A DNA stretch of 26,276 bases from a virus. Numbering within the stretch: position 1 is the first letter of the stretch; the number at the start of each line of letters is the position of its first letter. Positions 20,850-25,574 of the stretch are shown here, in pieces. The notes under the pieces were generated by a model that saw only the letters and a list, made by a program, of their open reading frames with translations, searched no databases and was not told the DNA's origin. The translations under genes and the position numbers were made by a program. The DNA is taken from the IMG/VR virus record IMGVR_UViG_3300024247_000020, positions 1-26,276 of that record; one strand, given 5' to 3'.

Positions 20850-23800
20850 CTAGTAGATGGTGTAAGTGTCGTTGATGTTAGCCTCAATGCCTGTGCGGTT
20901 GGCTGACTGGTCGGTGTTAAATATGACAACCTCGCTAAAATCAAATGAACCCGAAATTTGAGAGCCAAATGCGCCGATTCTATTAGCGTTTGTGGTGACA
21001 GTAGGAGCATTATTAGAGGCTGTAGCCGTTGCAACAGTGCTAAACGCTTGGCCGTTCTTAAAGCCCGAAGCTGTGCTTGCATCTACAGATAGCGTTATTA
21101 ACTGAAAGCCATTTGAGTATGCTCCATCTTGAAGCTTAACTGCCGAATCGTGGTAACCAATACTAAGGTTATTTGAACTCACATAAGGCACATAAATTCT
21201 ATTGTTTGGCTCACCCAAAACAACACCATAATCATTATTGCCGTCAGAGTTAGTAAGCACGGCACTGACTAACAATGTGTCAAGGTTTGAAATCAGGCCA
21301 GCAGGAATTGAAAATGAGTCATTGTTACCGTCGAAGTAAATCAGCGGTTTACTGTTTTGTGTCACTAATGCCCCTGACTCTACTAATAGAGGCTGGCTCG
21401 CTGCCGTTGATTGGGTTGCGTGGTTAGTGCCGCCTTGGTCATACCATGTGGTGACGTGGCCGTCGTTGCCTGCGCCTACAAAAGCTACAAGCGTCCCATC
21501 GCTAACCTCGGATGCCTTGAAGTCGCTCGTTGCGTTGTCGGAACTCCGTCGAACATTAACAACATTCGGGTCAAGGTCTGAGTCAAACGAACGGAGACTG
21601 TAAGCGGCTGCGGGTTCCAAGTCGAGAATGTTAGGAATCACTAGCACTCCGTTGATAAACACCTCCCAGCCTTTGCCGGAGAGACTGTCGATTGCGGTGT
21701 TCGTCGCGGCACTGAGTGAGCCAGTGGCTGTATTGTAATCGATGTCGATTCCAGCGTCAGATAAAGCCGAGCCACCAGATGCTCCGTTAGTCGTTGCGTA
21801 TTTGCCAGATGCGTCGATGGAGACAAGAATGTTCTCGACCGATTGAGCGGATAATGCGGAACAGCCGTCCCATGTGTCATTGAAGACTGCAGTATCTATG
21901 CTTGCTGGATTCCAGTTGGTAAACACATCGGCAGAAAAATCGACGAGTGAACTACACCCTTGCCACGCTTCAAGACAGTTGGCCGATTTAGGAAGTTTTG
22001 TGCTGAAAGATGCAAGCGGTGTTAGCTTCCATGTCCTTATGAACCTTGACCCTTTACTTAAATCAAGGGCTGCGGGAAAACTTGTGAGTCCGCTAGACAT
22101 CCATGCTAAGTTGAAATTTACATTAATCGCCTCCGTGCCGAGCTTTGCGCCCGCCGGAAATGACGTTAGGGCCGAGCAGCCATTGAAGGCATTGAAGAAG
22201 TTAGTGCAGACTCTCGCATCAATGGCTCCAAATGAACTTAGTGATGTCGCGTTATAAAATGCATATGACATATTTATCCCGTTGCTTAAATCCAACGCAG
22301 GGAAACTCGTAAGTCCACTAGACTGCCATGCGCTCGTAAAGTTCACATTGGTCGCCTCCGTGCCGAGCTTTGCGCCGCTTGGGAATGACGTTAGGGCAGA
22401 AGTGCCTCGCCATGCGGACGAGAAGTTTGAGCCGTTGCTGGCGTCAATGGCCCCAAATGAACTGAGTGAAGTCGAGTTATGCCATGCGCTTGTAAAGTTA
22501 ATGGTATTAGAAAGTCTTATAGATTTAAATTCAACAATGTCGGTTCGGTCTAGCCATGCGTATGAAAAAGAAATACCGATTATGTCGCCGTCGGAAGCAC
22601 CTCGGTCGATTAAGAGTTTCCTCGCCGACTCAATGTCAGCAGAACTTGCCGATTCGGGCAAAAGTATAATACCATACAAATCACCAGTTTTGCGGAACGT
22701 GCTACCAAAGTTACCCAAAAGGTTCAGCTCAGTGACTGCATCGTTGTCCACGCGATACACAAACGTCCCTAAGCTCGTGCCTACGATTTGCCAGCCAGCT
22801 TGCCCTCCTGACAGTGGACTTGCAACCACAAGGTGGTCAGCGTTGTCGTTAAATGTAACCTTGTAGCCATCCCGTGTTGGTCGGTCGTTGACTACAGATT
22901 GGCTAACAGAAGCGTTAAGTGTGAGATCAGAACCAACAATATTACCGTTCCAGTAAGAAACAAAATCAGCAGGGTCAACGATAGGGAAAATCTGCGGGTC
23001 AAAGAAATAGTAGCCTTGTGAGTCAATGAGACTAAACACGTTGTTCCTATTATTAATATAATTACGAACTGAGTCAGCTTGGGCGTCGGTGATGGTCGCA
23101 GGGAAGAGTGCAAGGAACTCTAGGTCGATTGCTGTGTTTTGGTCTACGCCGTCCTGTCTTACTGCTATATTGAATTCTTCTGCGCTGACCGTTGTTGAAA
23201 CACTCAACGTATGTGGTGCAGCGTTATTAACAGACGATTCAATACCTGTTGAAGTAAGTTTTGATTCAACAAGAATGTCCCCATTGTTTTCATCGAATAA
23301 ATCGGTTTGAATAATTGCGGAACCATTATAGTAAGTAGCTAAATCATTGGTTGAACTATTTTTATCAACAAACTGAAATCCTGTGGATGTTGCATCAGAT
23401 GCTCCTGTTGAGTTTATGCTAAACATCCTGCCCCATGTTTCTCCACCAGTCCCAAGGACACTGAACGCTGCAAACATGTAACCGTCAGTTATTGTTTGGT
23501 TTAACAAGCCGTTAAGACCATCATTAGTCCCATCGAACCGCAAGACACTCTTCTTGATAACCGTGGCTGGGTCGTTGCCGGATTGATTGACAGTCACCAC
23601 TTGGCCAGTCGCGCATTTGAACTTGGTGTCGCCGTGGCGAATGTGGCTTGCCGTGAAGTCGATGTTGAGTTGCTCAGTGCCGTTAATGGATAGCGTAACG
23701 CTTTGAATGTATCCGTTGAGTGGTAGGCGCGACGTTGAAAACTGACCATTAAAACTAAGGTGCGTAAACGTAGGGGCTGCTGTAATATTATTAATAGTGC

Positions 23801-24311
23801 CTTTTACCGCCCCGTTTTGTTTGAACACTAAAGTGCTGCCTGTTTTTTCAAATCTAAGTGTGCTTAGTCCTGCCGATAAAGAGCCGCTTAGGGATGCGTT
23901 ATTGTTGTTTGAGCCGTCTCGGTATTGAAACGAAGGAGAACCACCAGTATTATAAATCAAAATTCGGTGAAGACTTGAGCCAGAGACTACATGAAAATCT
24001 TCCACGTTCACAATATAAGCCACCATTTCAAGCACGAAGTCATCGTTAGCTCCGATAGCAGGAAAGGTAACAGCCGGAGCGTTCCCAGTGGTGACCGGCA
24101 GATAACAATAGCCTTTACCATTGGCGTCTAATGGCAACGCTTTAGGCTGGTTTAGGGCTGTCCCTTGTTTCGCATCGCCGCCCTTTTGTGAACCGCGAGC
24201 CAAGTTGCGTAACACTGGGACGTTCTCAAGGAAGTCAGCGGTCGTCAGGGCTTCTGCTAGAACGTCACCAGATGTCGAAGCGTTCGTCAGTGTATTTAAG
24301 TTAAGTGCCAT
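20850..24311 (-). CDS. Large modular fibre-like protein with BspA-like leucine-rich repeats
   Basis: The product is 1153 aa and is probably a receptor-binding protein. Residues 1-230 hold a LamG-like sandwich (LRFEKTGSTLVFKQNG, GYIQSVTLSINGTEQLNIDF). Residues about 230-440 hold a second concanavalin-like module starting VLRFDGTNDGL. Residues about 590-830 form a run of about 25-residue repeats of the BspA/DUF285 type, with the pattern F..AW...S.LTSFP. Two 75-residue blocks inside this run (residues 604-678 and 679-754) are near-duplicates. Residues about 898-1153 resemble the arabinofuranosidase B catalytic-like module often found in phage tail proteins (AYSLRSF, VRRSSDNAT, FVGAGNDGHVTTWYDQGG, PLIYFDGNND). 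There is no Shine-Dalgarno before the ATG. It lies upstream of the portal, not after gp16 as in T7. Enzymatic activity is not claimed. Confidence 0.8.
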   Translation of the reverse strand: MALNLNTLTNASTSGDVLAEALTTADFLENVPVLRNLARGSQKGGDAKQGTALNQPKALPLDANGKGYCYLPVTTGNAPAVTFPAIGANDDFVLEMVAYIVNVEDFHVVSGSSLHRILIYNTGGSPSFQYRDGSNNNNASLSGSLSAGLSTLRFEKTGSTLVFKQNGAVKGTINNITAAPTFTHLSFNGQFSTSRLPLNGYIQSVTLSINGTEQLNIDFTASHIRHGDTKFKCATGQVVTVNQSGNDPATVIKKSVLRFDGTNDGLNGLLNQTITDGYMFAAFSVLGTGGETWGRMFSINSTGASDATSTGFQFVDKNSSTNDLATYYNGSAIIQTDLFDENNGDILVESKLTSTGIESSVNNAAPHTLSVSTTVSAEEFNIAVRQDGVDQNTAIDLEFLALFPATITDAQADSVRNYINNRNNVFSLIDSQGYYFFDPQIFPIVDPADFVSYWNGNIVGSDLTLNASVSQSVVNDRPTRDGYKVTFNDNADHLVVASPLSGGQAGWQIVGTSLGTFVYRVDNDAVTELNLLGNFGSTFRKTGDLYGIILLPESASSADIESARKLLIDRGASDGDIIGISFSYAWLDRTDIVEFKSIRLSNTINFTSAWHNSTSLSSFGAIDASNGSNFSSAWRGTSALTSFPSGAKLGTEATNVNFTSAWQSSGLTSFPALDLSNGINMSYAFYNATSLSSFGAIDARVCTNFFNAFNGCSALTSFPAGAKLGTEAINVNFNLAWMSSGLTSFPAALDLSKGSRFIRTWKLTPLASFSTKLPKSANCLEAWQGCSSLVDFSADVFTNWNPASIDTAVFNDTWDGCSALSAQSVENILVSIDASGKYATTNGASGGSALSDAGIDIDYNTATGSLSAATNTAIDSLSGKGWEVFINGVLVIPNILDLEPAAAYSLRSFDSDLDPNVVNVRRSSDNATSDFKASEVSDGTLVAFVGAGNDGHVTTWYDQGGTNHATQSTAASQPLLVESGALVTQNSKPLIYFDGNNDSFSIPAGLISNLDTLLVSAVLTNSDGNNDYGVVLGEPNNRIYVPYVSSNNLSIGYHDSAVKLQDGAYSNGFQLITLSVDASTASGFKNGQAFSTVATATASNNAPTVTTNANRIGAFGSQISGSFDFSEVVIFNTDQSANRTGIEANINDTYTIY
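22050..22277 (-). repeat. LRR tandem block, copy 2 (228 nt)
   Basis: This block encodes residues 679-754. It keeps the framework TSLSSFGAID, SALTSFP, GAKLGTEA and SSGLTSFP of copy 1. It differs at the positions between them (for example WHNS against FYNA, and SNGSNFSSAWRGT against RVCTNFFNAFNGC). One extra alanine codon near its end accounts for the three-nucleotide length difference. Confidence 0.85.
22278..22502 (-). repeat. LRR tandem block, copy 1 (225 nt)
   Basis: This block encodes residues 604-678 of the LRR fibre protein. It matches copy 2 (22277-22050) at an offset of 225 nt, i.e. three 25-residue repeats. Shared nucleotide stretches include CCGTGCCGAGCTTTGCGCC (plus strand), seen at 22358 and 22133, and CCAAATGAACT seen in both copies. 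Confidence 0.85.
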
Positions 24312-24314
24312 TGC

Positions 24315-25574
24315 TTAGAGATTTGAGTTTGACACCGGCCAATATAAGACACGCTTTATATGCCCTAACAAATGGTCAGTATTATTATAAAAGCTTCCGA
24401 TGCAAAGCTTGGTCAAATTTGATAGATTACCGTTGTGAGTCGTTGTCCCAATCATTGCGGAGCCGTTAAGAGAACCAAATTGATTTGACGAATTGTAAGA
24501 AATCGCCGCACGACTCAAACCGCTTGGGACATTGCCGAAAACCAAACTTTGCGCCCCGTCATACGAATACAGCCTGTTCTGATAATTGCTGTAAAAGAAA
24601 CGACTTTGTGGATTTTGCCCGTTTAAAATGTAAAAATCTCGAAAGGCGTCTTTCGTCTCAAACTCAACGTAAAACGTGCCGTCACCGCCAGTGTTAAAGA
24701 AATTACTAAATGCAGTGCCGGTAATCTCAAGCTTGTCAGCGGCTCGCGTCACGGTGGAACCTGATGTCGGTATGTAGCTTGTGCTTACGCTTCCGAGTTC
24801 AATCTGGCCACCCCATAGGTCAACTGAGTCGGCTGTTGAACCAGATTCTTTTCTGATGGATACAGCGGCGTTTGTGTTGTCGGCTCCTAGTGTCATAGTC
24901 AACCCTTCAATTCGTTGCCAATCTCCTGTCAATGTAACTGTCTGAGGACCCGATGCGACATAGGCTCCTCCGGTGTATCTTTTAATCCTAAGAACAACAA
25001 CCTCACCAGCTATGCCTCGCACGTAGATAGAACCTGTTACTTGGGTGCTTGATGTTACAGTGGACGCGATGCTGTAAGCCATGTCTGAAGAGCTTGAAGA
25101 CAAAATCCCGCTGATTTTTGATGCAGTGTTAGTCCCGTCGGGTGCATCAATTCCTGTGGTCTTCGTAATGTCTACATTTTCAGTAAACGAAGTTGAGTTA
25201 GTCACCAAGTTAGTAGCACTCGGCTCCACCAGAATCATCGGCACTCCATCAACGTGGTCAACGCGCACCGTGTTGGCTGGGGCTGACGCTATGAGACCGT
25301 TGACATCTGTGAACGTGGCGGTTCCTGCGCGGGTCGCTGTGATAACATTAAGCGTATCCGGCTTAGAGGGGTCGAGGTCTAGTGTTGGGTTCTCAAGGGT
25401 TCCTATCATGGAATCCCGAGCGTCAAAAAGAAGATAGGGGTCCAGCTCGTTGGGGTGAAACTCATTCAAGTTACTTAGCCTTTGCGTAAGCGGCCTGGTT
25501 AACGGAAGCGTAACACTCCTGTTAATGGTGGGCCTACTTAGCCAAGGCTTCAAGCTGTCCTTCTTCTTCGACAT
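24315..25574 (-). CDS. Modular fibre-like protein with carbohydrate-binding and lectin-like domains
   Basis: The product is 419 aa. Residues about 30-125 match a module common at the start of phage receptor-binding proteins: an arginine-aromatic start, then TRAGTATFTDVNGLIASAPA and a segment ending EPSATNLVTNS. Residues about 125-275 look like a CBM_4_9-type jelly roll (SGSIYVRG-like strand, LTGDWQRI, ending VSTSYIPTSGSTVTRAAD). The last 140 residues look like a LamG/concanavalin-like lectin domain (FYVEFETKD, LGHIKRVLYWP). This architecture fits a surface-glycan-binding tail appendage. It is much shorter than T7 gp17 and has no obvious gp17 N-terminal anchor. The ATG lies just after CTATAGGGAAT, a weak Shine-Dalgarno (AGGGA) or a T7-promoter-like core. 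It is followed at once by the LRR fibre gene. Confidence 0.75.
   Translation of the reverse strand: MSKKKDSLKPWLSRPTINRSVTLPLTRPLTQRLSNLNEFHPNELDPYLLFDARDSMIGTLENPTLDLDPSKPDTLNVITATRAGTATFTDVNGLIASAPANTVRVDHVDGVPMILVEPSATNLVTNSTSFTENVDITKTTGIDAPDGTNTASKISGILSSSSSDMAYSIASTVTSSTQVTGSIYVRGIAGEVVVLRIKRYTGGAYVASGPQTVTLTGDWQRIEGLTMTLGADNTNAAVSIRKESGSTADSVDLWGGQIELGSVSTSYIPTSGSTVTRAADKLEITGTAFSNFFNTGGDGTFYVEFETKDAFRDFYILNGQNPQSRFFYSNYQNRLYSYDGAQSLVFGNVPSGLSRAAISYNSSNQFGSLNGSAMIGTTTHNGNLSNLTKLCIGSFYNNTDHLLGHIKRVLYWPVSNSNL

Follow-up and report, generated by a model that had tools for sequence, protein, structure and literature searches.

The window, a 26,276-base virus contig analysed at its full length (IMG/VR record IMGVR_UViG_3300024247_000020), carries T7-like podovirus structural genes (terminase, internal virion protein, nozzle, major head protein, portal and endolysin) together with a gene for a long, probable fibre protein. 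Comparison of this gene with its relatives indicates that it probably encodes an adhesin with a mosaic leucine-rich repeat (LRR) solenoid, which was built by recombination at one repeat subtype, the hinge, within a pool of related T7-like phages. The lectin-like and LRR folds of the protein and the adjoining tail-protein gene suggest a fibre or adhesin role, while its domains and gene position point to receptor binding and an effect on host range.

Mosaic arrays and the hinge repeat

Approximately 50 non-redundant relatives were identified in viral contigs, along with one annotated genome, AP013544. Across this set the fibre gene is a patchwork, in which conserved DNA at codons 1-70, 218-290, 390-571 and 788-882 is separated by stretches that often have no detectable DNA similarity among relatives. 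The 39 complete arrays contain 6-16 repeats, and each includes at least one hinge, a 28-residue KLGT-type LRR subtype (FTSAWQxCSALTSFPAGAKLGTEANNVN; core DNA GGCGCAAAGCTNGGCACG) that occurs one to five times per complete array. The core 18-mer has two exact matches in the window, both on the minus strand, where 0.04 would be expected by chance.

The boundaries of the long sequence runs shared between relatives concentrate at this repeat: 29 of 34 non-redundant boundaries fall within -60 to +95 nucleotides (nt) of hinge KLGT codons, compared with 15.7 expected, and 5000 draws of random placement never put more than 25 boundaries near a hinge (an indicative p <= 0.0002). At four junctions that were read base by base, the switch between parents takes place within ~10-25 nt at the codons for FPxGAKLGT, and the longest exact parental matches are 11, 12, 9 and 21 nt. 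Each of the nine recurrent heads occurs with at least two different tails, and each of the six recurrent tails with at least two different heads; for two of the heads the count depends partly on incomplete arrays, as L042 and L089 are truncated contigs. Array boundaries, junctions and head/tail combinations all describe variable segments that are exchanged at conserved motifs. Judged from sequence comparison, these data show a mosaic structure with its boundaries at the hinge.

Cassettes can also be lost or doubled. The array of L004 equals that of L014 minus exactly one hinge-to-hinge cassette, with flanks that are 96.7% and 98.9% identical, and L016 features an exact 291-nt tandem duplication that runs from hinge to hinge. 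Hinges are spaced in classes of 50-55, 74-75, 97 and 120-122 codons. In the proposed mechanism, the hinge subtype, which is conserved at the DNA level, would provide the homology for exchange. A crossover in the hinge between two molecules would leave one array's head attached to another array's tail, and an unequal crossover between two hinges within one lineage would remove or double a hinge-to-hinge cassette (50-122 codons). Hinge exchange apparently swaps whole pieces of the probable binding surface at once.

Ancestry of the 225-nt blocks

An earlier note on this DNA had picked out duplicated stretches at an exact 225-nt offset. These were found independently by a repeat finder (direct pairs 22072-22175/22297-22400 and 22196-22262/22421-22487, with 225-nt spacing and 78% identity) and by an offset scan, in which 225 nt scored 76.6 and the runner-up offset 17.8 (codons 609-672 versus 684-747). 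Past codon 672 there is a one-codon frame slip (PALDLS/PAALDLS), so the exact 225-nt register stops there. The 225-nt period is the hinge-to-hinge distance of the 75-codon class.

The same note took the blocks to be a local duplicate diversified at exposed residues. A tandem duplication of the block in the window lineage, with fast amino-acid replacement at exposed positions afterwards, would account for the exact register across 64 codons and for the clustering of inter-block differences, which the note had recognised and which are bunched in a single fast stretch at codons 625-635 (nonsynonymous divergence, dN, 0.80); tandem duplication is also known within the family from the exact copies in L016. 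However, each block is far nearer to a module of another phage than to its neighbouring block. L018 has units identical to window units 0-2, and L031 has units identical or nearly so to units 0-1, while window units 4 and 5 are 94% and 87% identical to those of L020, compared with ~71% identity between units 1 and 4 of the window itself. The L018 array is 95.5% identical to that of the window as far as codon 676 and divergent afterwards. With closer kin of its blocks in L018 and L020, the window array therefore combines modules that are found apart in other phages. The inter-block divergence also speaks against this duplication: with a block-wide dN of 0.23 and synonymous divergence (dS) of 0.92 (dN/dS ~0.25), amino-acid changes are not in excess overall, and these values do not suggest positive selection across the whole block. 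We therefore consider a local duplication unlikely; an ancient duplication that preceded the spread of the modules is possible. By sequence identity, the two blocks are hinge-to-hinge cassettes that each contain one hinge and differ in ancestry.

Two further proposals of the note, a variable repeat number and recombination between copies, are borne out among the relatives, the first by the range of repeats per array and the second by the shared runs, worked junctions and cassette loss, and in the arrays compared repeat number varies between lineages. The suggested heterogeneity of repeat number inside the window's own population was not seen, as the near-identical contigs L002 and L003, from other metagenomes, carry an LRR array identical to that of the window. 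The window and L002 differ by 25 substitutions at 22644-23531, with clusters in codons 261-262, 444-478 and 547-556 and none in the LRR region; 15 of the 25 lie in codons with a changed amino acid. Such clustering resembles the import of short tracts into the pre-LRR domain.

Predicted fold and domain layout

The nine units of the window array are, in order, 24, 24, 28, 23, 24, 28, 24, 22 and 24 residues long, which agrees with the roughly nine BspA-like repeats counted in the earlier note, and the BspA-type unit pattern AF/AW..C..L... recurs with a spacing of mostly 22-28 residues in the 39 complete arrays. An AlphaFold2 model of residues 557-893, made with 40 sequences, has a predicted local distance difference test score (pLDDT) of 92.2 and a predicted template modelling score (pTM) of 0.89, and its short strands recur at the repeat period. 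The LRR region was modelled separately because a whole-protein Foldseek search was swamped by laminin-G pairs; such domain pairs are matched in PDB by the two domains ahead of the array, with E-values down to 1.8e-10 and low template modelling scores for the pair. With the LRR model as the query, the top PDB rows hold LRR proteins at weak E-values (best 4.2e-3), and the viral models of BFVD yielded BspA-family and other LRR phage proteins. Residues 582-802 are thus predicted to form an LRR solenoid, as the note had supposed. The likeness to BspA/DUF285 proteins that it had drawn is supported by LRR_5, matched by 10 of 52 relatives within an E-value limit of 1 (best 1.2e-11), and by DUF285, matched by the S-CBWM1 protein; in a Pfam scan the window protein itself reached no model, and a sequence search found no PDB relative of the repeat array. 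The note called LRR fibres rare as receptor-binding parts of podoviruses, but LRR proteins as such are not uncommon in phages, given the numerous BspA-family phage proteins among the BFVD matches.

The proposed layout would comprise an N-terminal attachment segment, two lectin-like domains, a conserved domain, the BspA-type solenoid with its cap and an optional C-terminal domain (Table 1). Virion attachment is the probable role of the conserved residues 1-70. Laminin-G-like domains have a lectin-type fold. Model confidence is low in the pre-LRR region at residues 421-547. The optional C-terminal domain is common to cyanophage S-CBS4 gp059 and proteins of Gordonia, Arthrobacter and Microbacterium phages; given its presence in such distant phages, this domain is therefore also mobile between distant phages. 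Based on the portal, the nearest cultured relatives of the window phage are Roseobacter and Rhizobium phages (~50-53%).

Table 1. Features of the fibre gene and its upstream neighbour in the window.
Feature	Position	Strand	Basis and remarks
Putative fibre/adhesin gene	20850..24311	-	1153-residue open frame; relatives in ~50 distinct viral contigs
N-terminal segment, residues 1-70	24102..24311	-	Mostly 79-91% nt identity with relatives; similarity then lost
Laminin-G/concanavalin A-like domain 1, ~residues 77-245	23577..24083	-	AlphaFold2 strands; Foldseek PDB matches
Laminin-G-like domain 2, ~residues 257-405	23097..23543	-	AlphaFold2 model, Foldseek; DNA anchor at codons 218-290
Pre-LRR domain, residues 390-571	22599..23144	-	78-92% nt identity in most relatives; shared anchor upstream of array
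LRR array, nine repeats, residues 582-802	21906..22568	-	Unit analysis, offset scan, AlphaFold2
Block 1 of 225-nt repeat, codons 609-672	22296..22487	-	Offset scan
Hinge repeat 1, FSSAWRGTSALTSFPSGAKLGTEATNVN (28 residues)	22341..22424	-	Core 18-mer 22359-22376; relatives' boundaries fall here
Block 2 of 225-nt repeat, codons 684-747	22071..22262	-	Offset scan; closest kin in L020
Hinge repeat 2, FFNAFNGCSALTSFPAGAKLGTEAINVN (28 residues)	22116..22199	-	Core 18-mer 22134-22151
Solenoid C-terminal cap, residues 803-893	21633..21905	-	Confident modelled helices/strands; ~69-85% nt identity in relatives; downstream anchor
Optional C-terminal domain, residues 894-1153	20853..21632	-	Many relatives lack it; matches to S-CBS4 gp059 and actinophage tail proteins
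Tail protein gene (phrog_5939)	24315..25574	-	Upstream neighbour of fibre gene; E 1.5e-43

Assembly artefacts and recombination machinery

Among artefacts, assembly chimeras are the main worry, since assemblers might link phages that occur together wherever these share a conserved stretch. The boundaries do fall where conservation is highest, some of the recombining contigs derive from a single sample (L009, L022 and L024), and both L143 and the contig that holds L043 and L058 look odd. However, the exact match between parents is 9-12 nt at three of the four worked junctions, which is below the k-mers that assemblers normally use, and the shared runs are ~88-98% identical rather than 100%. In addition, arrangements recur across independent samples (window = L002 = L003; L011 = L012; L045 = L046 = L049), and AP013544, which derives from a fosmid library, has its last LRR unit in common with L005 and a different head. 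It is very unlikely that the mosaics are chimeras.

Several records have features of their own. L143 (positions 1-1490; IMGVR_UViG_3300009124_000545) contains a fibre 3' end and, behind it, an in-frame fusion of the beginning of the next gene (MTDETHRF...) with another LRR tail, whose own start lies at a hinge; a second copy of the next gene comes after. This is either a real partial duplication via hinge exchange or an assembly error. L043 and L058 are two fibre genes at opposite ends of one 37.5-kb contig (IMGVR_UViG_3300037635_003524), 92% identical before the LRR region and different after it, and their downstream DNA is just 65% alike. Both L022 and L024 (sample 3300046170) have an interrupted fibre reading frame, through either sequencing error or a real frameshift; these contigs are 98.9% identical for 6.9 kb downstream of the hinge and differ in their LRR heads. 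When bacterial genomes were searched for the fibre, the sole match was L147 (CAKZOI010000079.1), a two-hinge gene of this fibre type on a contig assigned to an Opitutae metagenome-assembled genome; the contig is probably a phage contig binned with that genome. Plasmids yielded none of the array's kind.

A dedicated diversification enzyme at the hinge (a retroelement, invertase or site-specific recombinase) would suit the short conserved DNA core with its sharp junctions and the tyrosine integrase in two of ten records, but is highly improbable. No reverse transcriptase (control genomes were positive) and no resolvase-family serine recombinase turned up in ten records each, eight of ten have no integrase, and the hinge core was not found outside fibre genes; several of the records may be incomplete. 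The integrase occurs in the related T7-like records L148 and L149 (AP013544 and the contig of L020), and some family members may therefore be temperate; as a common cause it was ruled out by its absence from the other eight. Seventeen records contain one to three hinge cores each, all positioned in fibre genes, and a backwards-pattern control gave none. By position, no core lies outside the fibre genes of these 17 records, and a silent cassette store was thus not seen; the L143 record is an oddity beside this otherwise fibre-confined distribution.

As reverse transcriptase and resolvase were absent and an integrase was present in only two of ten records, the mechanism that fits best, and the simplest one, is homologous or short-homology recombination at the hinge. 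T7-type phages recombine efficiently, and the genes of AP013544 include those for a phage single-strand binding protein and endodeoxyribonuclease 1. The exchange presumably uses the phage's own T7-type recombination proteins.

Exchange among divergent backbones

Across phage pairs, the synonymous codon identity of the hinge does not correlate with that of the portal genes (r = 0.05). In pairs with near-saturated portals (synonymous codon identity 0.38), the hinge retains 0.66 and the pre-LRR anchor 0.62, and therefore fibre parts circulate among divergent backbones and travel independently of them. Extra codon conservation of the hinge was considered as a DNA-level signal and set aside because the anchor is nearly equal; it is read instead as horizontal exchange of fibre parts.

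Some considerations weigh against a solenoid assembled by hinge recombination. The hinge is barely above the anchor in codon conservation in these divergent pairs, so its conservation does not prove a dedicated DNA function. The -60 to +95 nt zone was fixed after the distances had been viewed, which makes the boundary p-value only indicative, and likeness inside the conserved patch blurs the true crossover position. The 9-12 nt of homology at junctions compares present-day sequences rather than the original parents, and the data are almost entirely metagenomic contigs. A stronger proposition is that selection keeps the hinge as a recombination site, so that the same LRR would serve both fold and DNA exchange in a community-wide traffic of LRR cassettes resembling that of variable lymphocyte receptors (VLRs); we offer this only tentatively. 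If true, phages would rebuild their binding surfaces by crossover at one universal repeat.

Such a fibre would be a natural, readable record of a solenoid binding protein that diversifies by cassette swaps rather than point mutation. The marine phages concerned occur in many metagenomes, and the rules of the array (permitted joins, permitted cassette neighbours and tolerated repeat numbers) can be tested directly from sequence.

Comparison with known systems

In the gp38 adhesins of T-even phages, constant glycine-rich motifs are said to flank hypervariable segments (Montag et al. 1987; Tetart et al. 1998), and recombination between conserved motifs reportedly swaps specificity (Tetart et al. 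1998, cited in PMC6027323). The window fibre probably works in a similar way, in that variable segments of a probable receptor-binding protein are swapped by recombination between short conserved motifs. Whereas gp38, with its constant and hypervariable regions (PMC12892980), is a poly-glycine sandwich with loops at the tip of a T4-like fibre, the motif here is one repeat of an LRR solenoid in a T7-like phage. Unlike in gp38, the motif is itself a repeat, so the repeat number of the array changes too. Pfam and PHROGs scans gave no gp38 homology or glycine-rich motif family, the motif here being an LRR.

The idea of LRR cassettes is also reminiscent of lamprey VLRs, as an analogy without a claim of homology; those receptors draw somatically on silent genomic cassettes (PMC11335541), whereas the pool for the window fibre would be the phage community. 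On present evidence the fibre is homologous to neither gp38 nor VLRs.

Closer likenesses lie among LRR proteins. BspA-type proteins (LRR_5, PF13306; DUF285, PF03382) have the same repeat pattern and predicted solenoid, but the window fibre intersperses the 28-residue hinge subtype. Cyanophage proteins S-SKS1 SWZG_00142 and S-CBWM1 gp93 feature a similar repeat unit and cap (30-36% identity); they are short and have regular repeats, and the KLGT hinge was not seen in the arrays examined. AP013544 (uncultured phage MedDCM-OCT-S45-C18, Ayaqvirus) shares the gene position and architecture, has one hinge and encodes a portal that is 68% identical; its fibre differs from that of the window in its LRR modules and has no extra C-terminal domain.

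The literature searched, whose coverage mostly excluded subscription papers, yielded no account of a phage fibre that shuffles LRR cassettes. Shuffling of protein fragments among phage receptor-binding proteins is established in general (PMC10684548), and the new part here is an LRR scaffold with one repeat subtype as the exchange point.
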